Shown here piece by piece: positions 9,922 to 28,558 of a DNA stretch of 64,000 nucleotides (the first letter of the stretch is position 1; every line of letters begins with the position of its first letter). Below the pieces are notes generated by a model that saw nothing but the letters and a program-made list of their open reading frames with translations, was not told where the DNA came from and made no database searches. This DNA comes from Flavobacterium sp. NRK F7 (GTDB lineage Bacteria; Bacteroidota; Bacteroidia; Flavobacteriales; Flavobacteriaceae): the NCBI RefSeq assembly GCF_024054195.1, contig NZ_JAMXLB010000001.1, forward strand, positions 770,493 to 834,492. Reading direction: 5' to 3'. A program made the translations under genes and the position numbers.

Positions 9922-10245
9922 ATGAAAAACAGAGTACAATTAATCGGACATGTGGGTCAAGAACCAGAAATCAAAACTTTAGAAGCAGGAAAGAAAGTAG
10001 CGAGCTTATCAATTGCAACCAATGAAGTGTATTATAAAGACAACGGTGACAAAGTTGAAAAGACGGAATGGCATCGTGTAACTGCTTGGGGTAAAACAGC
10101 TGAAATTATTGAAAAATATGTAACCAAAGGAAAAGAAGTTGGAGTTGAAGGGAAATTGACGAACAGAACCTATGATGATAAAGACGGCGTAAAAAGATAT
10201 GTTACGGAAATAGTAGCCAATGAAATACTTTTATTAGGGAAATAA
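9922..10245 (+). CDS. ssb: Single-stranded DNA-binding protein, short form
   Basis: A 107-residue OB-fold protein starting MKNRVQLIGHVGQEPEIK, with the SSB signatures SLSIATNE, TEWHRVTAWGKTAEII and GKEVGVEGKLTNRTYDDKDG. It binds single-stranded DNA in replication, repair or recombination. It stops directly after the OB fold (VANEILLLGK) and lacks the acidic C-terminal tail that recruits partner proteins, so it is either an auxiliary SSB or one that works without tail contacts. A larger canonical SSB would be expected elsewhere in the genome. It has its own terminator. Confidence 0.92.
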   Translation: MKNRVQLIGHVGQEPEIKTLEAGKKVASLSIATNEVYYKDNGDKVEKTEWHRVTAWGKTAEIIEKYVTKGKEVGVEGKLTNRTYDDKDGVKRYVTEIVANEILLLGK

Positions 10246-14090: not shown

Positions 14091-14137
14091 ACTACCTTTT
14101 AGGTTAAAGCTATTTCTATCAATAAGAGTTATTTTTG
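14091..14137 (+). promoter_or_regulatory. Candidate LuxR-regulated promoter of the thiF-like gene (one operator box)
   Basis: The box ACTACCTTTTAGGTTAAA at 14091-14108 shares its first half and TTT core with the boxes upstream of the acyltransferase and outer membrane barrel genes (12 of 18 positions with either second box). The -7 element TATTTTTG at 14130-14137 starts exactly 39 bases after the box start, the same spacing as in both other promoters. The right half of the box is degenerate, and no convincing second box is seen 38 bases upstream at 14053. The start codon lies 16 bases after the -7 element. Confidence 0.55.
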
Positions 14138-14153
14138 TATCAAATATAAAGCA

Positions 14154-14903
14154 ATGGATAACAGATATAGCAGAAACAGAATATACATTACTCCAGAGGA
14201 GCAAAATAGAATTAAAGAGTACCCAATACTTCTTGGCGGGAGTGGAATAGGAAGTATTATTGCAGAATGTGCTTTGCGTTTCGGTTTTGAAAACATTACT
14301 ATTATTGATGGAGACCAAGTAGAATTAACAAATCTAAATAGACAAAACTATATAGAAGAAGACATAGCAATTTCTAAAACAGAAGCTTTACAGAAACGTT
14401 TGCTAGCTATTAATAAAAATGCAAAAATTACAGTTCATTCTTGTTTTCTTACGGTCGAAAATGTTGCAGATTATTTAAAAAACCATAAAATTGCAATTAA
14501 TGCACTTGATTTTTCTTCTGATGTCCCTTTAGTTTTTGATGCGATTTGTCAGGAACAAAACATTCCGGTATTACACCCGTATAATTTAGGTTGGGCAGGC
14601 TTAGTTTCAGTTATAGCACCAGATAGTTTGTCTTTGAATGCTTTAGCAAAAAAAGGAGAGCCTTTTAATGAGGTTAATATGGTAGAATATGCGACAAGTT
14701 ATCTTCGTTTTTGGGGAAATCCTCAAGATTGGCTTGAAGACATTATTCAAAAATATAAAGATGAGGTAGAACTTTTGCCACCACCACAATTGGCAGTAGC
14801 CTCATGGATTGTAGCAGCGATGTGTACTCAAATTCTTTTTGATATTGCTACGGGTAAAGAGGTAAAAAAGTTTCCAGAATTTTATTTTTCTTCAATCCAA
14901 TAA
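14154..14903 (+). CDS. ThiF/MoeB/E1-like adenylyltransferase
   Basis: A 249-residue protein with the E1 nucleotide-binding turn GGSGIGSIIAE at residues 28-38 and the hallmark IIDGDQVELTNLNRQ. The usual CxxC zinc motifs of ThiF/MoeB are not visible, and no obvious catalytic Cys follows the adenylation domain, so it may only adenylate a carboxylate. In natural-product clusters such enzymes activate a peptide C-terminus or carrier protein; here that is inference from position. Its promoter shares an operator-like box with the neighbouring acyltransferase and barrel genes, linking it to the lanthipeptide region. It converges tail to tail with the luxR-like gene, two bases apart. Confidence 0.85.
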   Translation: MDNRYSRNRIYITPEEQNRIKEYPILLGGSGIGSIIAECALRFGFENITIIDGDQVELTNLNRQNYIEEDIAISKTEALQKRLLAINKNAKITVHSCFLTVENVADYLKNHKIAINALDFSSDVPLVFDAICQEQNIPVLHPYNLGWAGLVSVIAPDSLSLNALAKKGEPFNEVNMVEYATSYLRFWGNPQDWLEDIIQKYKDEVELLPPPQLAVASWIVAAMCTQILFDIATGKEVKKFPEFYFSSIQ

Positions 14904-14905
14904 TT

Positions 14906-15664
14906 TTAAATGAGTTTATTATTCGTAGCAAAGGCAACAGCTTCGGAAATATTATTGACACCCAATTTATCAAATAATTTACGGCGATGAAATTTAACCG
15001 TGTCAGGAGAAACATAAATAGCATCAGCAATTTCAGTAATTGTAAAACCCCTAATGGAGTAGCTTAATACTTCTTTTTCTCTATCGGATAATTCAATTTT
15101 CTCTTCAGATTTCCAAAAATCACCTTCTAAATCGTATTTAAATATTTTGTTGTCTCCTTTTTTAAATATTTTGATGTTTCCAGAGCGTTGTTCATTGGAA
15201 AGGGAAACAATACAAATGGCTTTCCATATTTTACCATCATTTGTTAAAAAAAGAGGCGTTAATTTTTGATTAATTAAGATGATTTTTCCCTCTTGATTTT
15301 TTAAATGAAAGTCATAGGAAATTGTATGAAATTTTCTTTCTTCTACAGGAATTTTTTCATAAAATTCAAATCCAATCGCATTAATTTTAAGGAGTAAATC
15401 TAAATCTTGTTTTAAAACATATTTAAAATAAAAAGCGTAACCCATTTCTTGTACTTCTTCTCCTGAATGGCCGCAAAGAAATAAAGGATTTTCAGAGACA
15501 TAATCAAACCCTTTCTTTTGATAATCGATAACATAAATACTGTTATAAGTTGTTCGTGCAAAAGCTTTAATAGGCTCTAAGTAATCGTTGGTTTGTAGGA
15601 CTTCCTCATCTGAAACGCTATTAACCGTGTTTTTCAGACTGAAAAAATTGTTTATTTCTTCCAT
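14906..15664 (-). CDS. PAS-LuxR family transcriptional regulator
   Basis: A 252-residue regulator. Residues about 30-165 resemble a PAS sensor (VIDYQKKGFDYVSENPLFLCGHSGEEV), and residues about 188-250 form a LuxR/FixJ-type helix-turn-helix: LSDREKEVLSYSIRGFTITEIADAIYVSPDTVKFHRRKLFDKLGV. There is no acyl-homoserine-lactone-binding domain and no phospho-receiver domain. It is divergent from the acyltransferase gene, with two dyad boxes in the space between. A TATATTTG -7 element on this strand lies at 15682-15689, 17 bases before the start. It is the obvious candidate to bind the boxes; its ligand is unknown. Confidence 0.9.
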   Translation of the reverse strand: MEEINNFFSLKNTVNSVSDEEVLQTNDYLEPIKAFARTTYNSIYVIDYQKKGFDYVSENPLFLCGHSGEEVQEMGYAFYFKYVLKQDLDLLLKINAIGFEFYEKIPVEERKFHTISYDFHLKNQEGKIILINQKLTPLFLTNDGKIWKAICIVSLSNEQRSGNIKIFKKGDNKIFKYDLEGDFWKSEEKIELSDREKEVLSYSIRGFTITEIADAIYVSPDTVKFHRRKLFDKLGVNNISEAVAFATNNKLI

Positions 15665-15681: not shown

Positions 15682-15689
15682 CAAATATA
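15682..15689 (-). promoter_or_regulatory. Putative -7 element of the PAS-LuxR gene
   Basis: TATATTTG on the minus strand fits TAnnTTTG and lies 17 bases upstream of the start codon. No -33 TTG is seen at the normal distance. The nearest operator box (15718-15735) is 46 bases away rather than 39, so autoregulation, if any, would use a different geometry. Confidence 0.45.
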
Positions 15690-15717
15690 AGATTTTTTTA
15701 AGAAAAAAATCTTATAT

Positions 15718-15735
15718 ACTACACTTTCGGGTAGT
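15718..15735. promoter_or_regulatory. Operator box A of the acyltransferase promoter
   Basis: ACTACACTTTCGGGTAGT is an imperfect 18-bp dyad (ACTAC / GTAGT arms). Its sequence matches the reverse complement of the box at 16456-16473 at 16 of 18 positions. It lies in the divergent intergenic region beside the luxR-type gene, the usual place for such operators. Confidence 0.65.
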
Positions 15736-15755
15736 TTTTATGTAACTTATTCATT

Positions 15756-15803
15756 ACTACTATTTTGTGTAATGATGTCCATCTGTATGTTGAATAGCTT
15801 TGA
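15756..15803 (+). promoter_or_regulatory. Operator box B and -7 element of the acyltransferase promoter
   Basis: Box B (ACTACTATTTTGTGTAAT, 15756-15773) begins 38 bases after box A. The element TAGCTTTG (15795-15802), within TGTTGAATAGCTTTGA, begins 39 bases after box B. No -33 TTG is present at normal spacing; box B takes that place, centred near -42 relative to the expected start of transcription, as for class II activators. The expected transcript starts before the ATG at 15821 but after the TTG at 15800, arguing for the ATG. Confidence 0.65.
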
Positions 15804-15820
15804 GTATAAATAAAGCAAAT

Positions 15821-16510
15821 ATGATACTTACAAAAAACTACTTAGAAAGATTAAACACAACAGAAATTCAAAAATTATCTGAATTTGTTGTTATTGAAAA
15901 TTTTAAACATCATGCGAATAGTATTCTACCAAAAGAATACCAAGAAGATGTTCAGTCTATATATGAAGAAGAAATGCTTTATATAAAGAATTCTCAAATT
16001 TTTGTTTCCAAAAATAGTTCAGGTGAGATTTTAGGTGCCATACGCGTATTGAAATGGAATTTTATGGATGTTTTGCCTATTCAGAAAATTTTCGGAATAA
16101 ATCCTTTAAATGTAATTGGTGATATTCCTTTAAATGACATTTTTCATATTGGAAGATTTGCTATTAAAAAAGAAGGCAGCGATATGAATCTATTCAAACA
16201 ATTGATGGTATGTGCGATTTCTCCAGTTTGTAAGCATAAAGGAAATGTAGTCTTTGCAGAATGTGATAGTAAATTGTTACGTATCCTGAGGCTTTTAGGG
16301 ATTAAAGCAACAGTAGTGGGAGCATCTATAAATTATTTAGGTTCGGAAACGATTCCAATTTGTATGACCTATGACGGGTTACTTGATTTCTATAATGCCA
16401 ATAAAGCATTAGTTCCTCATACGGTTATGGAACAAGAATTAAAAGAAGCTTATGTACTACCTAAAAGTGTAGTTTTTAATACCTCAAGCTACAACTACTC
16501 TTTAGTGTAG
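15821..16510 (+). CDS. LuxI/FeeM-like N-acyltransferase (autoinducer-synthase fold)
   Basis: A protein of 229 residues from the ATG at 15821; a TTG at 15800 would add seven, but it lies within the predicted -7 element. The GNAT-related layout matches autoinducer synthases and N-acyl amino acid synthases: GEILGAIRVLKW (core strand with the conserved Arg), DIFHIGRFAIKKEGS in place of the ExGR(F/L) motif, then LFKQLMVCAISPVCKHKGNVVFAECDSKLLRILRLLGI and INYLGSETIPICM. Family members join an acyl chain to an amino acid or SAM-derived head group. The product here is unknown. It is divergent from the PAS-LuxR gene and has a two-box promoter. The 3' end of the gene itself contains the operators of the next gene. 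Confidence 0.72.
   Translation: MILTKNYLERLNTTEIQKLSEFVVIENFKHHANSILPKEYQEDVQSIYEEEMLYIKNSQIFVSKNSSGEILGAIRVLKWNFMDVLPIQKIFGINPLNVIGDIPLNDIFHIGRFAIKKEGSDMNLFKQLMVCAISPVCKHKGNVVFAECDSKLLRILRLLGIKATVVGASINYLGSETIPICMTYDGLLDFYNANKALVPHTVMEQELKEAYVLPKSVVFNTSSYNYSLV
16456..16473. promoter_or_regulatory. Operator box A of the outer-membrane/lanthipeptide operon promoter
   Basis: ACTACCTAAAAGTGTAGT lies inside the 3' end of the acyltransferase coding sequence. Its reverse complement differs from box A at 15718-15735 at only two central positions. Box B starts 38 bases further on, as in the other promoter. Confidence 0.65.
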
Positions 16511-16541
16511 CAGGTACAAAGTAGATGTTGAGTAGTTTTGA
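16494..16541 (+). promoter_or_regulatory. Operator box B and -7 element of the outer-membrane/lanthipeptide operon promoter
   Basis: Box B (ACTACTCTTTAGTGTAGC, 16494-16511) overlaps the acyltransferase stop codon. TAGTTTTG (16533-16540), within TGTTGAGTAGTTTTGA, begins exactly 39 bases after box B and matches the other promoter at 14 of 16 positions. The start codon at 16564 follows 23 bases later. Confidence 0.65.
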
Positions 16542-16563: not shown

Positions 16564-18942
16564 ATGAACCATATAATTTTCAATTTACTAGTATTTTTTT
16601 CAATGTCAGTTTGTTTGGCTCAAACTACTTACACAGGAAAAGTTATCGATACTAAAAATATACCAGTAGCTTTTGCAAATGTTATTGTTTATAAAAGTAA
16701 CGACCGTTCTGTTAAAGAAGGTACTATAACAGATGAAAATGGAAATTTTAAAATTACACTGAATGAAACAGAGAATTATCATTTAGAAATTAGTTTTCTA
16801 GGGTTTAAAACCAAAGTTATCCCTCTTAAAAAAACTGCACTGGGAAATATAATAGTAGAAGAAGAGGTGAATAGTCTTAATGAAGTTGTGGTAAAGTCTA
16901 AAAAAATAAACCTCATACGGAAAAATGATCGTCTGATTTTTTCAATTGAAAATACTGTTGCGCAAGAACTAGGATCAGCTGTAGATGTACTTAAGGTTAC
17001 TCCAAATATTGTGATGCGTGATGATCAGTTATCGATGTTGGGAAAAAATTTCATTCGTGTCATGGTAAATGGTAAAATGATGCCTTTTACGGGAAATGAC
17101 TTAAGAAATTACTTGTCTAGTATTAATAGTAATGATATAAAAAGTATTGAAGTCATTACTACACCACCCTCTGAGTTTGATGCAGAAGGAAATGGGGGAA
17201 TTATCAATATTATTCTTAAAAAGCAAAAAAATGATTTTTGGAGTCTAAATGCTCGCTTGTCAAGTATTCAAAGGAAAGAATTTTCATATGGAAGAGATTT
17301 ATCCTTTAATTATAAAAAGAAAAATACCTATTTAACATTGAGTGCTTCTAATGGTAAATATCTTAAAAATAATTTATTTCGAAATGCGACCTATTATGAT
17401 GAGGAAACTTGGTATGGAGAAGGGCCAAATCGATATGATAATGATTATACCAATTATAGATTTTCAATAACCCAAAACATTACTAAAAACTGGGAAATGG
17501 GAGCTAGTTACGCGGGATCTTTTTCGGATACCGATAATCAAACCACAAATAGAGACAGTATATTTGACACAAGCAACACATTAAAATATATAATTAATTC
17601 GAGAGGATTAAACCTAAGTGATTCTAAAGTTCATGCAATAAATTATTACAATACCATTCAATTAGACACGGTTGGGAAAAAAGTATCTATTGATTTGGAT
17701 TATTTTACTTCAAATGCTTTTAAAGAAGGAAATAATAGTGGCGAAAAATCAGAAAACAATATCAATCAACCTATTTTTTCTAATGCTACAGCGATAGATT
17801 ATAGCTTTAAAAATATATCCAATAAAATAGATTTTTTTCTTCCATTTAAAGGAATTGAATTAAAAGCAGGAACCAAAATTTCTTTATCAAAAACTACAAA
17901 TGACTTTAAATTTTATGACACTTTTACGGGTATACCTGTCTTAGATAACAATCAGTCCAATCACTTTAATTATGAAGAAAATATTTATGCAGGATATGTT
18001 TCTGGTACAAAGCAACTCAGTGAAAAATTATCGGGTACATTAGGTTTAAGAGTTGAAAATACGGTTACCGAATCCTATTCAAGAGCAATTAATCAAACGA
18101 ATACAAATAAGTATACCAAATTATTTCCAACGTTATTTTTAACATATAGTCTTGAAAATAATAAATCCCTCTCGTTTAATGTAAGCAGACGATTGAACAG
18201 ACCCTCTTTTGAAAGTTTAGATCCCTTTAAGATGGTATTAAATCCTTTCAAAACCGTTCAAGGGAATCCCTTTCTTAAACCTTCTTACCTTACGAGTAGC
18301 GAACTAATTTTTAATACAAACAAAAATGAATTGAAAGCCTATTCTCAATGGATGGATGATGGTTATGAACAAATAAGTGAAATTGATCCCAATACAAAAA
18401 TCATCAACTATACTTATTACAATTATATAAAAACCAGAACGTATGGAATTACTGACACCTACATTTTTGATAAGTTAGAATGGTTAACCTCTTATAATAC
18501 TATTGATATTGGTTATTCTATAATGTCTTCTTCCATACCACAGACGATTGCAAATCAAGAAGGTTTCAATGCTTTTATCCAAACACAAAATAGTATTCGT
18601 TTGGACCCAAAAAACAACCTCTCTTTAGGAATTAATTATTATTACGTTTTTCCAGCTAAAAATAATCTGTCTAAAGTGGAGGGCTATGGACCACTTGATA
18701 TCTCCTTACGATTAAAACTCTTAGAAGGAAATTTAAACCTCTCTTTATATGCAAGTGATGTTTTATATACCAGTAGAGCTAAAGTAACTAATTATTACAA
18801 CGGAATACGAGCAACATATAAAAACTATTACGATACCAGATATGTGAGTTTTACAGCGAGATACACATTTGGTAACAAAAAGATTTATTCGAAAGCATCT
18901 CGATTTGGAAATGACGATATCCAAAGCAGAGCAACAAAATAA
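16564..18942 (+). CDS. Outer membrane beta-barrel protein with CarboxypepD_reg-like N-terminal domain
   Basis: A 792-residue protein with a signal peptide ending near CLAQ, a carboxypeptidase-regulatory-like domain (YTGKVIDTKNIPVAFANVIV, residues 21-105), a plug-like region (VDVLKVTPNIVMRDDQLSMLG to VITTPPSEFDAEGNGGIINI) and a long C-terminal barrel finishing in a run of aromatic strands. This is the outer membrane beta-barrel family related to TonB-dependent receptors. As first gene after the two-box promoter and upstream of the precursors, it may carry the peptide, or a signal, across the outer membrane; that is inference. It is probably co-transcribed with the downstream genes, since no terminator or promoter is seen in the 91 bases before the first precursor. 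Confidence 0.85.
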   Translation: MNHIIFNLLVFFSMSVCLAQTTYTGKVIDTKNIPVAFANVIVYKSNDRSVKEGTITDENGNFKITLNETENYHLEISFLGFKTKVIPLKKTALGNIIVEEEVNSLNEVVVKSKKINLIRKNDRLIFSIENTVAQELGSAVDVLKVTPNIVMRDDQLSMLGKNFIRVMVNGKMMPFTGNDLRNYLSSINSNDIKSIEVITTPPSEFDAEGNGGIINIILKKQKNDFWSLNARLSSIQRKEFSYGRDLSFNYKKKNTYLTLSASNGKYLKNNLFRNATYYDEETWYGEGPNRYDNDYTNYRFSITQNITKNWEMGASYAGSFSDTDNQTTNRDSIFDTSNTLKYIINSRGLNLSDSKVHAINYYNTIQLDTVGKKVSIDLDYFTSNAFKEGNNSGEKSENNINQPIFSNATAIDYSFKNISNKIDFFLPFKGIELKAGTKISLSKTTNDFKFYDTFTGIPVLDNNQSNHFNYEENIYAGYVSGTKQLSEKLSGTLGLRVENTVTESYSRAINQTNTNKYTKLFPTLFLTYSLENNKSLSFNVSRRLNRPSFESLDPFKMVLNPFKTVQGNPFLKPSYLTSSELIFNTNKNELKAYSQWMDDGYEQISEIDPNTKIINYTYYNYIKTRTYGITDTYIFDKLEWLTSYNTIDIGYSIMSSSIPQTIANQEGFNAFIQTQNSIRLDPKNNLSLGINYYYVFPAKNNLSKVEGYGPLDISLRLKLLEGNLNLSLYASDVLYTSRAKVTNYYNGIRATYKNYYDTRYVSFTARYTFGNKKIYSKASRFGNDDIQSRATK

Positions 18943-19033: not shown

Positions 19034-19216
19034 ATGAAAAAAATCCAATTAAACAAAGGGTTAAGCTTAAACAAAGAAGCAATTACAAAATTACAAGAAG
19101 ATCAATTATCTAACGTAAAAGGTGGTGTTAGAGGTGTTACTTGTGCTAATGCATCATGCGCAGCTTCATGTAACCAAAATTCATGCAATCACCAAGCAGA
19201 TCAAGTTTTACAATAG
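19034..19216 (+). CDS. lanA1: Class I lanthipeptide-type precursor peptide 1
   Basis: A 60-residue peptide. Residues 1-31 form a leader rich in Asn, Lys and Leu, with KGLSLNKEAITKLQ and the double-Gly end LSNVKGG typical of Bacteroidota GG-leader natural product precursors. The 29-residue core has four adjacent (Ser/Thr)-Cys pairs at 36-37, 41-42, 45-46 and 50-51 and ends ADQVLQ. LanB would dehydrate Ser/Thr, and the C39 exporter would cut after Gly31. The upstream AAAATAAAACAAAAATG is repeated before precursors 2 and 3. Confidence 0.9.
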   Translation: MKKIQLNKGLSLNKEAITKLQEDQLSNVKGGVRGVTCANASCAASCNQNSCNHQADQVLQ

Positions 19217-19262
19217 TTAGTAAAACAATTCAACAAATATTAATTTTTAAAATAAAACAAAA

Positions 19263-19445
19263 ATGAAAAAAATTCAATTAAACAAAGGGTTAAGCTTAAA
19301 CAAAGAAGCAATTACAAAATTACAAGAAGATCAATTATCTAACGTAAAAGGAGGAGTTAAAGGATTTACTTGTGCTAATGCATCATGTGCAGCATCATGT
19401 AACCAAAATTCATGTAACGCTCAAGCAGATCAAGTTTTACAATAA
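19263..19445 (+). CDS. lanA2: Class I lanthipeptide-type precursor peptide 2
   Basis: A 60-residue tandem duplicate of precursor 1, starting 229 bases downstream. The leader is identical. The core differs at three places: R33K, V35F and H53A. All four (Ser/Thr)-Cys pairs stay at 36-37, 41-42, 45-46 and 50-51. Spacer sequence around the start codon is also conserved, so the duplication unit includes the intergenic DNA. Confidence 0.9.
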   Translation: MKKIQLNKGLSLNKEAITKLQEDQLSNVKGGVKGFTCANASCAASCNQNSCNAQADQVLQ

Positions 19446-19492
19446 TTCGTAAAACAATTAAAACAAATATTAATTTTTAAAATAAAACAAAA

Positions 19493-19678
19493 ATGAAAAA
19501 AATTCAATTAAACAAAGGATTAAGCTTAAACAAAGAAGCAATTACAAAATTACAAGAAGATCAATTATCTAACGTAAAAGGTGGTGTTAGAGGTGTTACT
19601 TGTGCTAATGCATCATGTGCTAACTCTTGTAACCAAAATTCTTGTAATGCTCAAGTAGATCAAGTTTTAGAGCGTTAA
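19493..19678 (+). CDS. lanA3: Class I lanthipeptide-type precursor peptide 3
   Basis: A 61-residue third copy, starting 230 bases after precursor 2, with the same 31-residue leader. Against precursor 1 its core has A44N, H53A and A55V, and the tail ends LER rather than LQ. The four (Ser/Thr)-Cys pairs are unchanged in position. A strong terminator hairpin follows within 12 bases of the stop. Confidence 0.9.
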   Translation: MKKIQLNKGLSLNKEAITKLQEDQLSNVKGGVRGVTCANASCANSCNQNSCNAQVDQVLER

Positions 19679-19689
19679 TCATTCAACAA

Positions 19690-19739
19690 AACATAAAGGG
19701 ATTTTTGTTTCCTAATCTAAAAATCCCTTATGTTTTTTT
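19690..19739 (+). terminator. Intra-operon terminator/attenuator between precursors 3 and 4
   Basis: Arms AACATAAAGGGATTTTT (19690-19706) and AAAAATCCCTTATGTT (19719-19734) pair over 16 bp with one bulged A and are followed by a T-run. With no promoter seen downstream, partial read-through would give more transcript for precursors 1-3 than for precursor 4 and the enzymes. Confidence 0.8.
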
Positions 19740-19762
19740 AACCAATTTCAAAAACAAAAGAA

Positions 19763-19954
19763 ATGAAAAAAATTCAATTAAACAAAGGATTAAACTTGAA
19801 TAAAGAAGCAATCACTAGACTTCAAGACGTTCAAATGTCAAATTTAAGAGGTGGTGTGAGAAGTATTTCTTGTTTACAATTTACTTGTAATTCTTCTTGT
19901 AACAATGGAACTTGTAACGGTTCTGCCGATCAACAACTAGATTTTACTCGCTAA
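19763..19954 (+). CDS. lanA4: Class I lanthipeptide-type precursor peptide 4 (diverged)
   Basis: A 63-residue paralogue with a related leader (KGLNLNKEAITRLQ ... MSNLRGG, also 31 residues) but a very different core. Even so, Cys remain at 37, 42, 46 and 51, each preceded by Ser or Thr (S36, T41, S45, T50), exactly the register of precursors 1-3, with Ser/Thr swapped at three of the four places. An extra Ser44, Ser54 and Thr62 are present. Older than the other three by sequence, it is on the far side of the terminator, next to the enzyme genes. Confidence 0.88.
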   Translation: MKKIQLNKGLNLNKEAITRLQDVQMSNLRGGVRSISCLQFTCNSSCNNGTCNGSADQQLDFTR

Positions 19955-20039: not shown

Positions 20040-21173
20040 ATGAAAATAGCATATCAATTAATTGAAAAAATAGATTCTTTAAATAGCGAAGAATTAACAA
20101 ACGATGGTTTATTATCAGGTAAACTAGGACTTGTATACTATTATTTATCACTTTATAAGCATTTCAAAGAAGATAAATATTTACAAAAAATTCAAGCCAC
20201 TCTTGAAACTGTTTTTTCAAATATTGAAAGCGAACAATCGCATTTAGTGTTGTCTTCTTCCTTAGAAGATGGGTTAAGCGGTTTAGGATATATATTAAGC
20301 TTGCTAATTGAAGAACAAGTCTTAGATCAGCAGGATTATGCAGAAGAAATAGAGCAAATTAATACGATGGCTTTTCAGGAGGCGATGCAATTATTAGAGG
20401 CTCAAAATTATGATTTTATAAGAGGACCATTTGGAATATTATATTATTTAAATCACGTTAAGGCAACTGTTTATGTAGATGAAATTTTACAAAAAATACA
20501 AAAAAAATGTGAGGAAGATGCCTCTTTTTTATTCTATAATAACGCTACCTACATAGAAGGAATTCATATTGGATATGCTCATGGGTTGTGTGCTATCGTA
20601 AAAGTTTTAAATGATATTGAGAATGAAAAAGCAACTAGTATTTCTACAAAAATCCTTACCAAGTTAGTTGATTATATCAATAAAAATGAGGTTTTTATAA
20701 ACCAAAAAAGATATTTCTTGCCAAGAAGTATTCATAACTCTACCGAGTTCCCGAATGGATTAAATTTTAGAGCCGTATTAGCTTGGTCGAACAGCGATGT
20801 GAATTTTTCAACGCTTATTTATTCACTTAAAAAGGAATTGGTTAACCCAGAATTATTAAAAATGGCAGATGAAATTGCCCTAACAAGCCTAGAAAGAATC
20901 GATGCCAGTTCAACTCGAGTATGGGACCATCGATTTTATTATGGCAGCTCTGGAGTATTAAAAAGCTATAACTACTTATATACAAAAACAGGAAACCCAA
21001 AATTTAAAGAAGCTTCCGCATTTTGGTATCAACAAACCCTACATTATTTAGAAAACAATACCATAGCCGAACATCCTTTAGATTTTATAAATAATCTTCC
21101 AGCCACGACGCTAACGCTTTTGGAGTTTGAAGAACAAAAAAATACGAACTGGTCAAATATTGTATTATTATGA
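20040..21173 (+). CDS. LanC-like protein 1, lacking canonical zinc ligands
   Basis: A 377-residue alpha-toroid LanC homologue with repeated Gly-rich helix turns: SGKLGLVYYYLSLYK, EDGLSGLGYILSLL, RGPFGILYYL, GYAHGLCAIVKVL and GSSGVLKSYNYL. The His of the HG turn (about residue 184) is kept. Where canonical cyclases have WCYG, this protein has AWSNS (about 247-251), and where they have CHG it has YYG (about 298-300). The three zinc ligands Cys, Cys and His are thus Ser, Tyr and Tyr. It may be a non-catalytic scaffold or work by another mechanism. Its stop overlaps the next start by four bases (ATGA). Confidence 0.85.
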   Translation: MKIAYQLIEKIDSLNSEELTNDGLLSGKLGLVYYYLSLYKHFKEDKYLQKIQATLETVFSNIESEQSHLVLSSSLEDGLSGLGYILSLLIEEQVLDQQDYAEEIEQINTMAFQEAMQLLEAQNYDFIRGPFGILYYLNHVKATVYVDEILQKIQKKCEEDASFLFYNNATYIEGIHIGYAHGLCAIVKVLNDIENEKATSISTKILTKLVDYINKNEVFINQKRYFLPRSIHNSTEFPNGLNFRAVLAWSNSDVNFSTLIYSLKKELVNPELLKMADEIALTSLERIDASSTRVWDHRFYYGSSGVLKSYNYLYTKTGNPKFKEASAFWYQQTLHYLENNTIAEHPLDFINNLPATTLTLLEFEEQKNTNWSNIVLL

Positions 21174-22114
21174 GAAATGAAGAAATTAAAATAGGACTTT
21201 TAGAGTTTGGGATAAGTGATCAAAAAAACTCTATTCATGGATTAGAAGACATCTTTTCCTATGCAAGTACAGCTGATGAAATTGGATATTCAAGATTTTG
21301 GATTTCTGAACACCATCGATCGAATCCACTCCACCCTTACAATAATCCTGAAATTTTAATTTCTTTAATTGCAGGAATGACAAATACAATACGAGTGGGA
21401 TCAGCAGGATCATTAATAGGCTATTATTCCCCTTATTCTTTGGTCCAAAACTATAAATTACTGAATAATATTTATAATGACAGAATCGACTTTGGTTTGT
21501 CTAAAGGAAGACCCGAACACTCTCATTTACATAATTTTTTCAATTTGGACAATCCCACTTTCGAAAACAGAAATTATATGAGTAATCTGGAAAGTATTTG
21601 TGATTTACTTCAAAATGAAGAAGAAAATTTTGAAAAGAAAAACATTGTAATTCCCCCTTTTAAAGGAGTATCGCCTTCTCTTTGGTATTTATCTAACAGC
21701 TATAAAATGCGAGATATGGCGGTGCAAAAAAAACTTAACATCTGTAGGTCTTTACTACATGGATTAGATGTTTTTGATTTTGATCCAGATATTGAAGGAC
21801 TTACAAAATATAGAGAAGATTTTTATGCAACACATCAAGAATATCCTGAAGTAGCGCTTGCCATTGCCGTTTCATTTACAGATTCTCCTGAAAAACTATT
21901 GGAGAAAGAAAAAGAAATAACCAACATCAAAGAAGGGATAAAAGTACTTTCAGTTACAGAGGATAATTTTCTAGAAACTTTAGAGAACCTTCAGCAAAAA
22001 TACCAAGTAGATGAATTTATTATTTATGATACAGAGTATAATTTGGAGAAAAAGATGAAGCATCTAAAAATCATGAAAGAAGCGGTTTCTTCTAAACTTT
22101 TAAAAATCTATTAA
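21170..22114 (+). CDS. Luciferase-like (LLM class) flavin-dependent oxidoreductase
   Basis: A 314-residue TIM-barrel protein with LLM family features: EIKIGLLEFGISDQ start, STADEIGYSRFWISEHH at about residue 36-52, TNTIRVGSAGSLIGYYSPYSLVQNYKLLNNIYNDRIDFGLSKG. The fold binds FMN or F420. In lanthipeptide clusters some members (LanJ-type reductases) reduce dehydroamino acids to D-amino acids, and others oxidise peptides. Which cofactor and reaction apply here is open. It is translationally coupled to LanC-like 1 and separated by one base from LanB, so it is an integral biosynthetic gene. Confidence 0.83.
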   Translation: MRNEEIKIGLLEFGISDQKNSIHGLEDIFSYASTADEIGYSRFWISEHHRSNPLHPYNNPEILISLIAGMTNTIRVGSAGSLIGYYSPYSLVQNYKLLNNIYNDRIDFGLSKGRPEHSHLHNFFNLDNPTFENRNYMSNLESICDLLQNEEENFEKKNIVIPPFKGVSPSLWYLSNSYKMRDMAVQKKLNICRSLLHGLDVFDFDPDIEGLTKYREDFYATHQEYPEVALAIAVSFTDSPEKLLEKEKEITNIKEGIKVLSVTEDNFLETLENLQQKYQVDEFIIYDTEYNLEKKMKHLKIMKEAVSSKLLKIY

Positions 22115-22115
22115 A

Positions 22116-25100
22116 ATGAAAAACATTAGCATATTTACCAATAAAATAGTTCGAATACCTTTCTTCTCATTGAATGAATACAAAGCAATTCCAACAGATG
22201 TAAAGGAACTAGACACCTTTATCGATGCCCTGTTTTATCACGAAAAATTTTCAGAAGCCGTTTATTTGGCATCACCTGTTTTACATGAAGAATGGGAAAA
22301 AATAGTTGAATCAGGTAAAGAAAGAGGTAAAATCAACGAATCCATTCTAAAATATTACTTAAGAGCAATTTCTAATACGGTGCCTTTCGGATTGTTTACT
22401 TCTTATTCGATATTGGAAGACGAGCCTAAAGAATCAAAGGCAAAAGACTATGAAAGGTTTTCTAATCTTGATATGGAATATCTATTGAAATTGTTACATC
22501 ATCTGAATCAAGATCCTATTATAAAAAACGCAGTTACTTACAGAAAGAATAATTCCATTTATAAAGTAGGGGAAAAATATAGATACATTGAACCTAAATA
22601 CGTCAATGATAAAATCAGCTATACATTAGCATCTATTGATAGTGATGAATTAATTGATTACCTATTACAAGACGACAGAGAAGAAATTACGTTAACAGTA
22701 CTTAAAGAAGAAATTTTAAATCTTGTGGAAGGTGTAACTGAAGATGAGGTGGCAGCTTACTTAGATGAATTAATCCAATCTGGAATCTATCTTTCTTCTC
22801 TAGAAGTATGTTTAAACCAGCCTCAATTTATACAGCAAATAGTAGGTTTTTATGAAAAAAACAAAGCTCAAATTGACACGAAAGATTCGTTAAAAAATAT
22901 TTTTGAAGCCTTACGAAATGTAGATACAGCTTTACATCAATTAGATGATAAGGTCTTTAATTCTAAAGCCATTTATGATACTGTTTTTTCTGAATTGAAT
23001 AAGATTGGTATTCCTTACGAACAAAAATATGTGATTAATTCCAACCTGAAACGTAATAATGTTGCGATAAACGAAAAGGATATTAATCAAAAACTCCAAC
23101 AATTCTTAAGTAAATTATCTAAAATTTCTCATAGTAAAATTAAGCGTTTGAATAATTTGGAAATTTTCAAACAAAATTTTTACAATCGATATGAAGATCA
23201 AGAGGTAAAACTAATGGATGCTTTAGATAATGAGTTAGGAATAGGATACTTATCGCAATATAATGAAGATGTTTTATTCTCAGATCTTTTAGACGATATC
23301 ACCATTGCTCCACAGAAAAAGGGAGTTACCGATAGAAAAATTGAACCTCAAATTAATAATTTTTGGTTGAATTTAATCATGGAAAATGCTGATAAAAGAG
23401 CAATTGACTTGGATAAAGTTTCATTAGATGTATACCAAAATGAAAAACCAATAAAAAATGGTGCTTTTTCAATCGCGTATACCTATGCAAATGATAAAAT
23501 CTATTTAAAATATGCTTCAGGTGCAACCGCAACCAACCTAATTGGTCGTTTTGGAAATAATGACTCACAAATGCAAAAAGTAATTGATGAAATTACCACT
23601 TTTGAGCAAACCGTAAATAAAGATAGAATCACCGCAGAAATCATCCATTTGCCTTCGAATCGAACAGGAAATGTATTAATTAGAAATATAGATAGAGAAG
23701 CAGAAATCAGTTTAATTTCAAGACCATCTGGAAAGCGAAAAGTAATAGATATTAATGATTTATACCTTAGCATAAAAAACAATAGGATTGTCTTACGTTC
23801 TGGGAAATATAAAAAGGAAGTAATTCCCTATCTAAGTTCGGCACAAAACTTTCATTTCAACTCATTACCAGCCTATCATTTATTATGTGATTTACAAATT
23901 CAAGATCGATACATCGATTACGCTATTAATTTTGGAGGTTTTAATATTGATGATTTAGATTATTGTCCGCGATTGGTTTTTGGAGAAAAATTGGTAGTTA
24001 GAAATGCACAATGGCGTTTGAAGAAAGAAAACTACAAGTCGATAGAAGCTTTGCAAAATCATTTAGAAACCTTACAAGTACCTCAATTTGTATATATCGT
24101 TGAAAGTACGGAAGAAAAAATGATTATCGACAGAAAAAACCCGGTAACTCTTGCTATTTTATGGAATGAAATAAAAAAGAACGGTTTTGTACAAATTTCA
24201 GAATGTGTGTATGATTTAAATAAAGAGAATGAAGTGGCTAATGAAAACATTGCTTTTGTAAAATCACAAAGAAGTGCCAATGTTTTAGATACAATTTGGA
24301 ATTTTTCTGATAAAGAAGATCAAAATGTAGAAAGAGCTTTTATCTATGGTGACGAATGGATGTATTTTAAACTCTATACGGGTCGCGTAATTTCAGATGT
24401 TATCTTAACGGAAAACATACAGAAAATTGTGACGACTTTGACCGAACAAAAAATCATAGACAAATGGTTTTTTATCCGATACACTGACCCTGATTTTCAC
24501 CTTAGAGTGCGTTTGCATTTAACGGACAATAAAAACTATGATATGGTAACTAAAGTAATCCATCAAGAGTTAAAAACATTAGTAAATGAAGGAAAAGTTT
24601 GGAAGTTAGATGTTTCCACCTATAAAAGGGAAATTGAAAGATATCATTGGAAAAATATCGACAATTCGGAAAACATTTTTTCAATTGATTCTGATTTTAC
24701 ACTGAAATTAATGCGATACCTCAAAGAAGCAAATGAAAACCGTACTTGGTTGTTTATTTTGAAATCGATAGATGATTTTTTCAATGCATTTCAAATTTCT
24801 CTTGAAGAAAGACATCAAATCATAGAAAAAATGTATCACAGCTTTTGGGTAGAACATGGTGAAGTAAAATCGGTAAGAAAAGACATTAATGCAAAATTTA
24901 GAAAGCATACAGAAGAACTTACTCATTTATTCCACGAAACACCTGCCGATTTACAAGAACTGTATCAAGAGCGGTTGTCACAATTAACTAAAATTCAGTT
25001 TGTGGATGAGGTAACAACTAATATGACAGATTTGCTATGGAGTTATATTCATATGCATGTCAATCGATTTATTCCTGCACATCCGAGATCACATGAGTTA

Positions 25101-25190
25101 ATTATGTATGGAATTTTAGAGCGCTTTTACAGCAAAGAAATTGGAATGAAAAAGTATAACCAAAAACTAGTTACAGATGAAGCTTATTAG
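22116..25190 (+). CDS. lanB: LanB, full-length class I lantibiotic dehydratase
   Basis: A 1024-residue protein carrying both parts in one chain. The N-terminal glutamylation domain runs to about residue 700 and opens with RIPFFSLNEYKAIP and VYLASPVLHEEWEK, followed by LRAISNTVPFGLFTSYS. The C-terminal SpaB_C/elimination domain (about 720-1010) has ERAFIYGDEWMYFKLYTG, DKWFFIRYTDPDFHLRVRLHL and VSTYKREIERYHW. It should activate core Ser/Thr with glutamyl-tRNA and eliminate water to give Dha/Dhb. In some Bacteroidota clusters such as pinensin, the two parts are split; here they are fused. The gene overlaps the exporter start by 14 bases. Confidence 0.94.
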   Translation: MKNISIFTNKIVRIPFFSLNEYKAIPTDVKELDTFIDALFYHEKFSEAVYLASPVLHEEWEKIVESGKERGKINESILKYYLRAISNTVPFGLFTSYSILEDEPKESKAKDYERFSNLDMEYLLKLLHHLNQDPIIKNAVTYRKNNSIYKVGEKYRYIEPKYVNDKISYTLASIDSDELIDYLLQDDREEITLTVLKEEILNLVEGVTEDEVAAYLDELIQSGIYLSSLEVCLNQPQFIQQIVGFYEKNKAQIDTKDSLKNIFEALRNVDTALHQLDDKVFNSKAIYDTVFSELNKIGIPYEQKYVINSNLKRNNVAINEKDINQKLQQFLSKLSKISHSKIKRLNNLEIFKQNFYNRYEDQEVKLMDALDNELGIGYLSQYNEDVLFSDLLDDITIAPQKKGVTDRKIEPQINNFWLNLIMENADKRAIDLDKVSLDVYQNEKPIKNGAFSIAYTYANDKIYLKYASGATATNLIGRFGNNDSQMQKVIDEITTFEQTVNKDRITAEIIHLPSNRTGNVLIRNIDREAEISLISRPSGKRKVIDINDLYLSIKNNRIVLRSGKYKKEVIPYLSSAQNFHFNSLPAYHLLCDLQIQDRYIDYAINFGGFNIDDLDYCPRLVFGEKLVVRNAQWRLKKENYKSIEALQNHLETLQVPQFVYIVESTEEKMIIDRKNPVTLAILWNEIKKNGFVQISECVYDLNKENEVANENIAFVKSQRSANVLDTIWNFSDKEDQNVERAFIYGDEWMYFKLYTGRVISDVILTENIQKIVTTLTEQKIIDKWFFIRYTDPDFHLRVRLHLTDNKNYDMVTKVIHQELKTLVNEGKVWKLDVSTYKREIERYHWKNIDNSENIFSIDSDFTLKLMRYLKEANENRTWLFILKSIDDFFNAFQISLEERHQIIEKMYHSFWVEHGEVKSVRKDINAKFRKHTEELTHLFHETPADLQELYQERLSQLTKIQFVDEVTTNMTDLLWSYIHMHVNRFIPAHPRSHELIMYGILERFYSKEIGMKKYNQKLVTDEAY

Positions 25191-27375
25191 ACAATATGAT
25201 AAAATGGATTGTGGACCTTCTTGTTTAGGAATGGTTGCCAATTCTTACGGAAAAGAAATTTCATTAAATTATCTAAGAGAAAAATGTCATATTACCAAAG
25301 AAGGAGTCTCTTTGCTAGGAATTGATGAAGCAGCTACCGAACTCGGTTTTGAAACCTTCTCTGCAAGCTTAGATATGGATGAATTAAAAAAAGTAGAAGA
25401 CTATAATTTTCCTTGTATTCTTCATTGGAACAACAACCATTTTGTAGTGCTCAAAGGCTATGGAAGAAAAAGCTTTTTTAGCAGACAAAAGAAATGGCAA
25501 ATAGCCGATCCAGGACATGGATTTATCGATTTAAATGATCAAAAATTTAAAAAATCATGGTTAGGTGAAAATGAAACTGGAATTGCCTTTTTTCTTAAAC
25601 CAAAAGAGAAATTCTTTAAAACCGAATTTAAACAACCTGAAAAAATATCATTAAACTTCTTTTTGAAATATTTTGTTTCACATAAAAAGAAGTTGGGACT
25701 TGTTTTTATTTTGATGTTATTAGGAAGTTTAATCAATATGATTTTTCCTTTTCTAACCCAGTTTTTAATTGATAAAGGAATATCGAATAAAGACATCAAT
25801 TACATTCAATTGATTCTTTTTTCACAATTGAGTTTGTATTTAGGAGCCATAATTATAGAAATATTTCGAAACTGGTCGCTTCTAATTGTAGGAACCAAAA
25901 TTAGTATCAAAATTATATCGGAGTTTTTAACTAAAATTCTAGAGTTGCCTTTACGTTTTTTTGATTCCAAATTAATTGGTGATTTTCAACAAAGAATACA
26001 AGATAATGATAGAATAGAATATTTTTTAACCTCTCAATCTATTGCTACGTTCTTTTCAACCATTACTTTTTCAGTCTTTTTTATAGTCTTAGCATATTAC
26101 AATCCTAAAGTTCTATTAATCTATGTTTCTTTAACCGTTTTGTCACTTTTATGGTCCAACTATTTTTTAAAGAAAAGAAAAATACTAGATTATCACCGTT
26201 TTGTTGAAAACAGTAACAATCAAGAAACGATTTATGAAATTTTAAATGGTGTTTCTGAAATGAAACTGAATAATTTCGAAGAACACAAATGCAATCAATG
26301 GAAAGAAGTGCAAAATAGATTGTTTAAAATTAATCTTAAAATCTTGAAATTGGACCAAATTCAAAGTTCTGGATTTAATTTTATCAATCACATTAAAAAT
26401 ATCTGTGTCTCTTTTTATACAGCCGTTTTAGTAGTACAAGGAGATATGTCTTTAGGAGTTTTATTGAGTGTTTCTTATATTATTGGAATGATGAATTCAC
26501 CAGTTGACCAATTGGTTTCATTCTTAAAATCTTTACAAGATGCCAAATTAAGTTTAGCTCGATTAAATGAAGTTCAAACCGAACAAGCGGAAGAAAAAGA
26601 AACCTATGCGAATTTAGAATTAAAAAGTGCGCTTCATTCTGGAATCAAATTAAGCAATGTTTCCTTTCAATACGAAGGTCCAAGATCACCTTTTGTGTTG
26701 AAAAATATTGATATGTATATTCCAGATGGGAAAATTACTGCGATAGTAGGTGCTTCTGGTAGCGGAAAAACGACATTAATGAAAATGTTACTGCGCTTTT
26801 ATGATTCCATAACGGGTCATATCAGTTTTAATGGTCAAAATATTTTAAATCTATCACCAAAAGATTTACGAAAAAATTGTGGGGTTGTAATGCAAGACGG
26901 TTTCATTTTTTCAGATTCCATTAAAAGAAATATTGCTACAGCAGATGAAGAAATAGATTATGACAGGTTAAAAAAAGCCGCTCAAATTGCAAATATTGAA
27001 GAGTATATCGAATCGCTACCATTGAAATATGATACCAAAATCGGTGCTTCAGGCAGTGGTCTTTCTGGAGGTCAAAAGCAAAGAATCTTAATTGCAAGAG
27101 CCGTTTACAAAAACCCACATTATGTTTTCTTTGACGAAGCCACTTCAGCTTTAGATGCAGAAAATGAAAAGATAATTCACGACAATTTATTCGACTTTTT
27201 CAAAGGAAAAACAGTGGTAATAATTGCACACAGATTAAGTACGGTGAAACATGCCGATCAAATAGTTGTCCTTAAAAAAGGAGAAATTAGCGAAGTGGGA
27301 AGTCATGCACAATTAGTAGAAAGAAAAGGAGATTATTTTAGTTTAGTAAAAAACCAATTAGAATTAGGAAGTTAA
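25177..27375 (+). CDS. lanT: C39-peptidase ABC exporter (LanT-like, PCAT)
   Basis: A 732-residue bacteriocin exporter. Residues 1-140 are a C39 Cys peptidase with DCGPSC (Cys12), the His in NNNHFVVLKGYG and Asp in ADPGHG. Six transmembrane helices follow at about 165-450. The nucleotide-binding domain (about 490-725) has Walker A GASGSGKTT, signature LSGGQKQR, Walker B VFFDEATSALD and the H-loop IIAHRLSTV. It should cut each leader after the double Gly and export the core through the inner membrane. No HlyD-type adaptor is seen. It starts inside the end of lanB. Confidence 0.95.
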   Translation: MKLIRQYDKMDCGPSCLGMVANSYGKEISLNYLREKCHITKEGVSLLGIDEAATELGFETFSASLDMDELKKVEDYNFPCILHWNNNHFVVLKGYGRKSFFSRQKKWQIADPGHGFIDLNDQKFKKSWLGENETGIAFFLKPKEKFFKTEFKQPEKISLNFFLKYFVSHKKKLGLVFILMLLGSLINMIFPFLTQFLIDKGISNKDINYIQLILFSQLSLYLGAIIIEIFRNWSLLIVGTKISIKIISEFLTKILELPLRFFDSKLIGDFQQRIQDNDRIEYFLTSQSIATFFSTITFSVFFIVLAYYNPKVLLIYVSLTVLSLLWSNYFLKKRKILDYHRFVENSNNQETIYEILNGVSEMKLNNFEEHKCNQWKEVQNRLFKINLKILKLDQIQSSGFNFINHIKNICVSFYTAVLVVQGDMSLGVLLSVSYIIGMMNSPVDQLVSFLKSLQDAKLSLARLNEVQTEQAEEKETYANLELKSALHSGIKLSNVSFQYEGPRSPFVLKNIDMYIPDGKITAIVGASGSGKTTLMKMLLRFYDSITGHISFNGQNILNLSPKDLRKNCGVVMQDGFIFSDSIKRNIATADEEIDYDRLKKAAQIANIEEYIESLPLKYDTKIGASGSGLSGGQKQRILIARAVYKNPHYVFFDEATSALDAENEKIIHDNLFDFFKGKTVVIIAHRLSTVKHADQIVVLKKGEISEVGSHAQLVERKGDYFSLVKNQLELGS

Positions 27376-27376
27376 C

Positions 27377-28558
27377 ATGAAAACAAATAACATCATTACA
27401 GAAAGTAGTATCGTAAGAGAAATAGAAGAGTCTATTCAAGACAATCATTCCATTTTTACGTCCATGGGTGTCGTAAATGGTTTAGCAGGGGTTTCTTTAT
27501 TTTATTATTATTTAGGAGATGCCGATTTAAGTATCTCTTTTCTAGAAAAAGCCATTGAGGGTTTAAACGACTCCTATGAAGGACCTAATATTGTGGAAGA
27601 TATTATTAGCATTGGCAAACTATTAACTTTTTATGTAGACAATGGATTGCTGCAGCAAGAAGATATAGAAATGTATTTTGAAAGTTATGATCCGATACTA
27701 GAAGAATTATTTGTTGACAGTTTAAAAGAAGACAATTTGAGTCCAGTAACAGGAATCTTAAAATATGTCAATTATTTTGTACAACGCACGAAGTATGGCA
27801 AGAAAGATTATACTTTATTTTTCTCAGACGTGGTCGACAAAATAGAGAAATTGGCGCAGACTGACGCTGAAACTGGTGGTATTTATTGGATTTCAAATGT
27901 GGATCGACAAGGTAGAAAACTAATCGAATTAGGAGTGAAACATGGCGTGATGGGAATCGTTGATAGTTTGATTAATTTGTACCAAATTAATTTTCAAAAG
28001 GAAAGAGTACAAAAACTTATAGAAAAAGCTTTGCTTTATACCACAGCACATCAGTTTGAAAATAAAAAAGTGATTTTCCCTTTTTGTACTGATGATGTAC
28101 CTGAAGCTAAATCTTTCTCTTTTGGTTTAATGTATGGAGATTTAGGAATAGCCTATGTATTGCATCGAGCAGCTGATGTTTTTGATTGGAATAAGTATGA
28201 AGAATTAGCTTTAAAAACTTTAACAAGAGCTAGCGAAATTAGAGATGATAAAAAGGAAATTATTAAAGATGCTAATTTGTTTTATGGAAGTTTAGGAGTG
28301 GCCTCTTTTTTCAAATTGATGAAAGAAAAGACCCAAAGTAATTTTTTAGAAGAAGCGATTCAATATTGGTATACCAAAACAGAAGATTATAAAATACCGG
28401 AAAGTCAATGGGCTGGTTTTGACACTACTTTCAATAAATTTGATATAAATGCACAGTTGTCTTTTTCCCACGGAATTGTTGGAATTGGAACCGCACTATT
28501 GCATTTTGAGAAAAATTTAGATTTTGGTTTTCTATCATTTATAGATTATGAAAAGTAA
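27377..28558 (+). CDS. LanC-like protein 2, lacking canonical zinc ligands
   Basis: A 393-residue LanC-type alpha-toroid homologue starting one base after the exporter stop. Helix-turn motifs include GVVNGLAGVSLFYYYL, GVKHGVMGIVDSL (HG His kept), GDLGIAYVLHRAA, GSLGVASFFKLM and SHGIVGIGTALLHF. The canonical WCYGxxG position reads LMYGDLG (about 249-255) and CHGxxG reads FYGSLG (about 299-304), so all three zinc ligands are missing, as in LanC-like 1. It is only distantly similar to LanC-like 1. It ends the operon and is followed by a terminator. Confidence 0.85.
   Translation: MKTNNIITESSIVREIEESIQDNHSIFTSMGVVNGLAGVSLFYYYLGDADLSISFLEKAIEGLNDSYEGPNIVEDIISIGKLLTFYVDNGLLQQEDIEMYFESYDPILEELFVDSLKEDNLSPVTGILKYVNYFVQRTKYGKKDYTLFFSDVVDKIEKLAQTDAETGGIYWISNVDRQGRKLIELGVKHGVMGIVDSLINLYQINFQKERVQKLIEKALLYTTAHQFENKKVIFPFCTDDVPEAKSFSFGLMYGDLGIAYVLHRAADVFDWNKYEELALKTLTRASEIRDDKKEIIKDANLFYGSLGVASFFKLMKEKTQSNFLEEAIQYWYTKTEDYKIPESQWAGFDTTFNKFDINAQLSFSHGIVGIGTALLHFEKNLDFGFLSFIDYEK

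Follow-up and report, generated by a model that had tools for sequence, protein, structure and literature searches.

What switches on the peptide cluster of Flavobacterium sp. NRK F7 that lies behind a LuxR-type regulator gene and a divergent gene for a putative acyltransferase (SYN), and could the proteins encoded there make and read a signal of their own? We addressed this question in a stretch of 64,000 nucleotides (the window), in which the SYN gene sits between two predicted promoters that each carry two near-palindromic boxes. The features discussed below are collected in Table 1.

Table 1. Predicted features of the locus, in window coordinates.
Feature	Position	Strand	Basis or remark
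Third operator, single box ACTACCTTTTAGGTTAAA	14091..14108	+	genome-wide pattern match; upstream of E1-like gene
-7 element TATTTTTG of E1-like gene	14130..14137	+	39 bp from box start
E1/ThiF-like adenylyltransferase	14154..14903	+	ThiF-family matches below curated cut-offs; solved homologue
PAS-LuxR-type transcription regulator, C-terminal GerE HTH	14906..15664	-	PF00196 56.4 bits, cut-off 23.5; PAS weak
Box A, SYN promoter	15718..15735	+	letters and pair pattern confirmed
Box B, SYN promoter	15756..15773	+	centre probably near -42
-7 element TAGCTTTG, SYN promoter	15795..15802	+	
SYN, LuxI/FeeM-like GNAT acyltransferase, proposed signal synthase	15821..16510	+	TIGR03694/FeeM similarity, low-confidence model
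Box A', 3' end of SYN gene (codons for LPKSVV)	16456..16473	+	
Box B', last SYN codons and stop codon (NYSLV-stop)	16494..16511	+	
-7 element TAGTTTTG, downstream promoter	16533..16540	+	
Outer-membrane beta-barrel protein, first gene of downstream unit	16564..18942	+	PF14905 E 1.7e-70
Four class I lanthipeptide precursors	19034-19216, 19263-19445, 19493-19678, 19763-19954	+	ORFs
LanC-like protein	20040..21173	+	PF05147 E 1.8e-25
Luciferase-like monooxygenase	21170..22114	+	PF00296 E 3e-16
LanB-type dehydratase	22116..25190	+	PF04738 and PF14028 over cut-offs
Peptidase-containing peptide-export ABC transporter	25177..27375	+	peptide cleavage/export ABC families, below cut-offs
Second LanC-like protein	27377..28558	+	LanM-family match E 2e-16, below cut-off

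The initial annotation had described the two promoters flanking SYN as one two-box module with exactly repeated spacing. Coordinates and letters of boxes A, B, A' and B' and of both -7 elements proved correct, base for base, and re-measurement gave a box step of 38 bp and a step of 39 bp from box B to the -7 element at both promoters. Box A and the reverse complement of A' do differ at two bases, and the second box set does lie in coding DNA, A' in the codons for LPKSVV and B' in the final SYN codons and the stop codon. The boxes had further been expected not to recur at random across the genome, and here the pair answered the expectation and the single box failed it. The window holds 33 matches to ACTAC-N8-GTAGT (up to two mismatches) against 15.4 +/- 3.5 in shuffled sequence, with none of 100 shuffles reaching 33, but single boxes (up to one mismatch) show no enrichment over the genome as a whole, where each strand has 162 and the reversed-pattern control 187. 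The 56-bp box pair (up to three mismatches), in contrast, has two sites in the 3.75-Mb genome, both at this locus (control, 0), and box B followed after 21 bp by TAnnTTTG (up to two mismatches) gave three genome-wide matches, all at this locus (control, 0). Since the pair and the 39-bp step are rare and single boxes stand at background, we assign the non-randomness to the geometry and not to the single box.

All three predicted promoters of the window thus follow one design, in which a near-palindromic box of 18 bp is set at exactly 39 bp from a -7 element of the form TAnnTTTG; this suggests three transcription units under one code. Two of these promoters carry a second box 38 bp further upstream. 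The third promoter belongs to the E1-like gene, with TATTTTTG ending 16 bp before the start codon. Geometry measured from the -7 element would place the centre of box B near -42, the class II position, and no TTG-type -33 element was seen by eye at the window promoters. The 38-bp box step corresponds to 3.6 helical turns, so two dimers bound there would not be required to share one face of the DNA.

Recent duplication of the promoter was considered as a source of the repeated design and ruled out, because the sole repeat joining both promoters covers 38 nt around box A (74% alike) and because both promoter positions also exist in Kordia and in a faecal contig. Between 13000 and 30000 no Rfam element was matched, and sigma-70-type promoter matches numbered 24 against 32.3 in shuffles, an uninformative count. 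Just upstream of the regulator gene lies a perfect inverted repeat (15685-15717) with 15-bp arms, a 3-nt gap and runs of T and A.

To follow the code into relatives, 62 promoter regions were taken from 22 of 26 SYN loci. Left aside were L018 (98% like the window), L015 (a near copy of L014), and L062 and L069, which have a divergent SYN without the regulator; L010 and L011, two copies in one genome, were both counted, and the own genome is among the 22. A box with TAnnTTTG at offset 39 was present in 48 of the 62 regions; every one of the 34 remaining offsets between 25 and 59 gave 0-5, and 38 of 3299 random windows matched. On these counts a chance origin of the promoter code was rejected. 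Box B lies exactly 39 bp from TAnnTTTG at 21 of 22 SYN promoters, so that the operator keeps a constant position upstream of the synthase gene's -7/-10 element, as at autoregulated promoters of LuxI/LuxR type. The same step was found at 14 of 22 downstream promoters and 13 of 18 E1 promoters, one of these 13 with a box A within four mismatches and the remaining five E1 promoters without a site.

Box A (up to four mismatches) stands at 37-39 bp in 17/22 SYN and 12/22 downstream promoters. When box steps of 20-60 were permitted, all 26 best pairs (up to two mismatches) fell at 37-39, and none of 2186 control windows gave a pair at any step. Conservation in relatives, which the initial annotation had set as a test, thus holds for the boxes and the 39-bp step, whereas the strict 38-bp box step gives way to one of 37-39. 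The box consensus reads ACTAC(A/C)CTTT(A/T)G(T/G)GTAGT, and across 15 genomes the promoter pattern matched 47 times against 6 in the control. With three mismatches allowed, the pair pattern matched 11 of 199 genomes against 27 for the reversed control, which is background, so only close matches are informative; those with at most two mismatches all lie within module or regulator loci, except one in G147 (two mismatches), which, like the matches in G047, G073 and G104 (three mismatches), stood outside the loci inspected. In G516 an additional box pair with a -7 element lies elsewhere in the genome (L124, about 9680; G516:C5:13658-13742).

The downstream promoter is absent in eight of the 22 loci, several of them NHLP-type clusters, in which SYN may share an operon with the genes that follow it. 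In 12 of 26 SYN genes box B' begins exactly 14 bp before the stop codon, which thereby becomes part of the operator, and the protein ends NYSLV, NYPLV, NYTFV or similar. At L011 and L066 the SYN reading frame stops earlier and the downstream boxes are still kept beyond its stop codon, pointing to constraint or selection on the DNA.

The initial annotation had called the neighbouring regulator a PAS-LuxR protein and the obvious binder of the boxes. The LuxR half of that label stands, as the GerE helix-turn-helix (PF00196) was found in 9/9 regulators scanned; the PAS half is weakly supported, with PAS_3 in four of nine (best E 0.025) and PAS_9 in one (0.0013) at E <= 1. Autoind_bind was not among the 20 families listed for the nine regulators at this threshold, nor did they reveal any sensor domain known to bind an autoinducer. 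The regulator profile matches the solved regulator 3clo over 98-248 (E 1.2e-15), and a predicted model (pLDDT 37) was unusable. The regulator subfamily (E <= 1e-60) occurs in 18 of 199 genomes, including all eight with SYN and ten without it. The box check covered six of these ten (G074, G093, G110 and G148 were left out): paired boxes with the 39-bp step are clear at three loci (L075, L076 and L149), and weaker, single boxes were seen at the other three (L150, L151 and L152). A locus from another order (L131 in G804, with regulator, E1 and a partial SYN match) has a box pair at 38 and 39, and the faecal scaffold L130 has no box promoter beside its regulator. Regulators of this subfamily thus have box promoters beside them even where SYN is missing. 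The common factor, and the likely binder, is the regulator, and the earlier assignment is strengthened. At L075, where the regulator adjoins without SYN, box promoters lie at 10140, 12708 and 15296, the first two just before outer-membrane barrel genes.

Sequence profiles suggest a relationship of SYN to N-acyl amino acid synthases. At E <= 1, TIGR03694 matched eight of nine SYN family members (best 8.9e-8; window protein 1.9e-5) and FeeM (PF21926) seven of nine (best 1.3e-5; window protein 0.071), and the window SYN scores below the curated cut-offs of both families (24.2 bits against 111.95, and 13.3 against 27). The LuxI AHL synthase family PF00765 matched none of the nine at E <= 1; its profile search of the own genome also returned nothing, with the controls likewise silent. 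A search of the own genome with TIGR03694 found no match at E <= 0.001, though the SYN protein alone scores 1.9e-5. The predicted SYN model has a mean pLDDT of 50 and a pTM of 0.55. With this low-confidence model the top Foldseek matches included the AHL synthases TofI, BjaI and EsaI alongside a GNAT toxin, at TM-scores of ~0.4, and VIA-align ranked FeeM (2g0b) first (Z 12.3), followed by TofI (11.9), BjaI (11.6) and LasI (11.5); by VIA-align's own rule ordinary GNATs (Naa60, Z 11.4) tie with FeeM and the AHL synthases. The fold of SYN is, as modelled, that of a GNAT, and because ordinary GNATs tie in the fold search its placement in the FeeM/AHL-synthase branch draws mainly on the sequence matches. 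PDB searches with SYN alone or as a profile gave no meaningful match, and two pNGR234a stretches yielded no LuxI relative for profile comparison. Inside the SYN gene lie two adjacent 24-nt copies with 79% identity (16102-16149).

The E1-like protein has a close solved homologue (9egb/9egc/9egd, E 1.6e-121), and its profile matches solved E1-like enzymes, with TcdA, MccB and PaaA among the PDB matches. Residues D52, D54, R63, Q64, K75 and D119 (window numbering), which form the adenylation motif, are invariant in 23/23 sequences. Two further E1 genes lie outside the main loci, that of G178 with a promoter site and that of G137 without. Open-licence PubMed Central yielded no paper for 9EGB/9EGC/9EGD; related work may exist elsewhere.

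SYN was found in 8/199 relatives, 14/397 genomes of the family and 13/395 of the phylum, sets that overlap, each count the own genome and contain some weak or partial matches. Named carriers are Flavobacterium profundi and Kordia algicida OT-1 (two loci, by a method finding close relatives only); in the order of G804 SYN matched 2/344 genomes, partially in both. At thresholds of E <= 0.001 for SYN and E <= 1e-40 for E1, the two genes occur in exactly the same eight of 199 genomes, and the regulator adjoins SYN in 24 of 26 loci. At the two exceptions, L062 and L069, no box pair was found and E1 directly follows SYN, an arrangement that suggests a single pathway for SYN and E1. Pairwise distances of SYN, E1 and regulator correlate (r 0.79-0.84 over 17 loci, 0/2000 permutations), a figure uncorrected for species descent. 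From gene content and order, regulator, SYN and E1 are a conserved module in Flavobacteriales, including Kordia algicida.

No SYN match was found among plasmids and no relative among viral contigs. The phage records gave one, MT836930.1 (L129), an unannotated human-faecal scaffold filed as 'Bacteriophage sp.' whose SYN is 37-39% identical. It carries a cut regulator gene, SYN, a radical-SAM maturase, a barrel and an exporter, keeps both promoters (box step 39, -7 step 39, boxes with one to three mismatches) and shows no E1 on its 8.2 kb by reading; we infer that it is a chromosome fragment of a gut Bacteroidota. This record and MT838486.1 (L130) are both unverified human-faecal 'Bacteriophage sp.' entries that read as Bacteroidota chromosome fragments, and both have a regulator of the PAS-LuxR-type subfamily, cut in L129.

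The gene unit behind the downstream promoter contains LanB, LanC-like proteins and class I leaders and is thus, by predicted content, a class I lanthipeptide cluster. This identity, like those of SYN and of the E1-like gene with its third promoter, was not part of the initial annotation. The NF038153 leader exceeded its cut-off in the first and fourth precursors, the two scanned. Three of the four tandem precursors (19034-19954) are nearly identical. Class I lanthipeptide clusters also adjoin the module at L018 and L017, whereas elsewhere its neighbours are of other kinds: NHLP-type clusters at L012, L013, L016, L063 and L070 (the L063 NHLP leader just under the cut-off), a grasp-with-spasm cluster in Kordia (L019) and an NRPS cluster with a UpxY antiterminator at L010, with E1 also near NRPS genes at L123 by reading. 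These families were profile-confirmed for selected proteins only, and the remaining assignments were made by reading. A NusG-like protein follows SYN at L010, L011, L060 and L073, of the UpxY antiterminator type in the two scanned (L010 and L060), and read-through of long clusters may be under the switch as well. A box promoter about 1.5 Mb away on the contig that carries the module (L125, about 9540; G445:C1:5547538) stands ahead of genes for a barrel, for a peptide with a GG leader and for a radical-SAM maturase; this peptide cluster is likely a distant target of the switch. The presence of one module beside chemically unrelated clusters favours a signal over a tailoring step.

Taken together, the locus is best read as an autoinduction circuit that would work like LuxI/LuxR but is built from other parts, with a candidate signal switching on its own synthesis and a peptide operon. 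We put the probability of this reading, drawn from DNA and protein sequence, at roughly 0.65. The layout is that of such a circuit: the SYN promoter appears to stand under the neighbouring regulator, the operator lies next to the core promoter, and no TTG-type -33 element is seen there by eye. The regulator would bind the boxes and activate RNA polymerase from about -42 (class II) with the help of the upstream box. SYN, together with E1, would make a small diffusible acylated molecule that turns the regulator on as cell density rises, and the active regulator would then raise SYN and E1, closing a positive feedback, along with the adjacent lanthipeptide operon. Since FeeM-type enzymes N-acylate amino acids and E1-type enzymes activate carboxylates, one guess at the product would be an N-acyl amino acid whose carboxylate is activated by E1. 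A bolder version, to which we give even odds, is a quorum-sensing class new to the literature surveyed, in which SYN and E1 jointly make a new signal, perhaps such an N-acyl amino acid activated, perhaps with cyclisation or conjugation, via its carboxylate. A PAS-LuxR-type receptor would read this signal and, acting at a two-box operator that stands 39 bp from the -7 element, would govern both the synthesis of the signal and peptide-antibiotic clusters that are interchangeable. If this is true, the class extends from Kordia, which is marine and algicidal, to a bacterium of the human gut, and many of its members encode the downstream operator within the final codons of the synthase gene.

The regulator and boxes could instead be a switch without any cell-to-cell signal, SYN and E1 making a tailoring group, a precursor or a private intracellular cofactor and the regulator sensing another cue such as redox, light or starvation. 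PAS-type domains often sense internal cues, ten of 199 genomes carry the regulator subfamily without SYN, the poor SYN model is compatible with a general GNAT role, and E1-like enzymes can modify peptides, MccB and PaaA being among the E1 matches. Against this, the same SYN and E1 stand beside lanthipeptide, NHLP, graspetide and NRPS clusters, with SYN also beside a radical-SAM cluster; SYN is itself a predicted target of the switch; and the SYN-E1 pairs of L062 and L069 have no regulator, box pairs or cluster recognisable by reading. We consider this account unlikely. A narrower alternative keeps the signal but gives its synthesis to SYN alone, with E1 as a peptide modifier of the cluster in the manner of MccB or PaaA. 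Such E1-like enzymes are known in peptide natural products, and these two are among the PDB matches, yet E1 tracks SYN through the same 8/199 genomes and not one cluster type, directly follows it at L062 and L069 where no cluster was recognised, and also occurs near NRPS genes (L010; L123 by reading), which leaves the modifier role quite improbable. A chance origin of the boxes, or a tie to some regulator other than the neighbouring one, might be argued from single boxes at genome background and the lack of a box promoter beside the L130 regulator, but is scarcely credible given the fixed 39-bp geometry in 48/62 regions, the boxes adjoining subfamily regulators without SYN, and three genome-wide promoter-pattern matches all at this locus.

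The autoinduction circuit would bear on a question left by earlier work. Open-licence PubMed Central literature gave no description of the regulator-SYN-E1 module, and a metagenome survey, in the part of it available, reports Bacteroidetes LuxR-type genes without a matching synthase and leaves an unknown, non-homologous synthase family possible (PMC6000730). The module is a concrete candidate for such orphan LuxR proteins, supplying an acyltransferase, a receptor, an accessory enzyme and an exact operator code, and with these parts in hand the question becomes testable. It also yields a prediction of how these bacteria could turn on their lanthipeptide, NHLP, graspetide, radical-SAM and NRPS clusters. 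For Kordia algicida, which carries the module (L019), the available portions of two papers describe protease release sped up by cell-free filtrate with no AHL detected (PMC3117869) and, in 2023, activity restored by starvation (PMC10565126). In G549, whose box sequences equal those of L019, the pattern scan hit the three sites of the module and one weak site elsewhere, a result that offers no link between the module and the algicidal protease. The solved E1-like structures (9egb, 9egc and 9egd) mean that the chemistry could follow quickly.

The lux box is centred at -42.5, and the module resembles LuxI/LuxR in having a palindromic box probably near -42 at the promoter of a synthase-like gene, in setting that gene beside a GerE-HTH regulator in a positive-feedback layout, and in the AHL synthases among the fold-search matches of SYN. 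It differs in that nine SYN proteins are without PF00765 and nine regulators without Autoind_bind, in its PAS-like sensor, in its two boxes 38 bp apart, in its Bacteroidota -7 element and in an E1-like partner with a site of its own; the module would thus be LuxI/LuxR-like in working and not a member by sequence, with neither the synthase family nor an autoinducer-binding domain. FeeM and the PEP-CTERM-exosortase N-acyl amino acid synthases (PF21926 and TIGR03694) are the closest sequence families of SYN, but the window SYN lies far below their cut-offs, and its partners are a LuxR-type regulator and E1. For Dyadobacter, the accessible parts of two papers propose a quorum-sensing circuit of dialkylresorcinol (darA/darB) and a LuxR solo (PMC9606717, PMC9430724), the sole Bacteroidota LuxR-type circuit met in the literature surveyed. 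As far as these sources extend, it shares with the module the phylum and a LuxR-type regulator beside signal-synthesis genes, and differs in using other enzymes, its signal coming from DarA/DarB and not from a GNAT and E1; no operator code is described for it there. With the adenylyltransferases of the E1/ThiF/TcdA/MccB group the window E1 has in common the invariant adenylation residues and a close solved homologue, and it departs from them in being tied to SYN and not to one cluster type. The peptide unit, finally, resembles other class I lanthipeptide clusters of Bacteroidota in its LanB, LanC-like proteins, exporter and L1a leaders, and is set apart from them by its position behind a promoter of the module.
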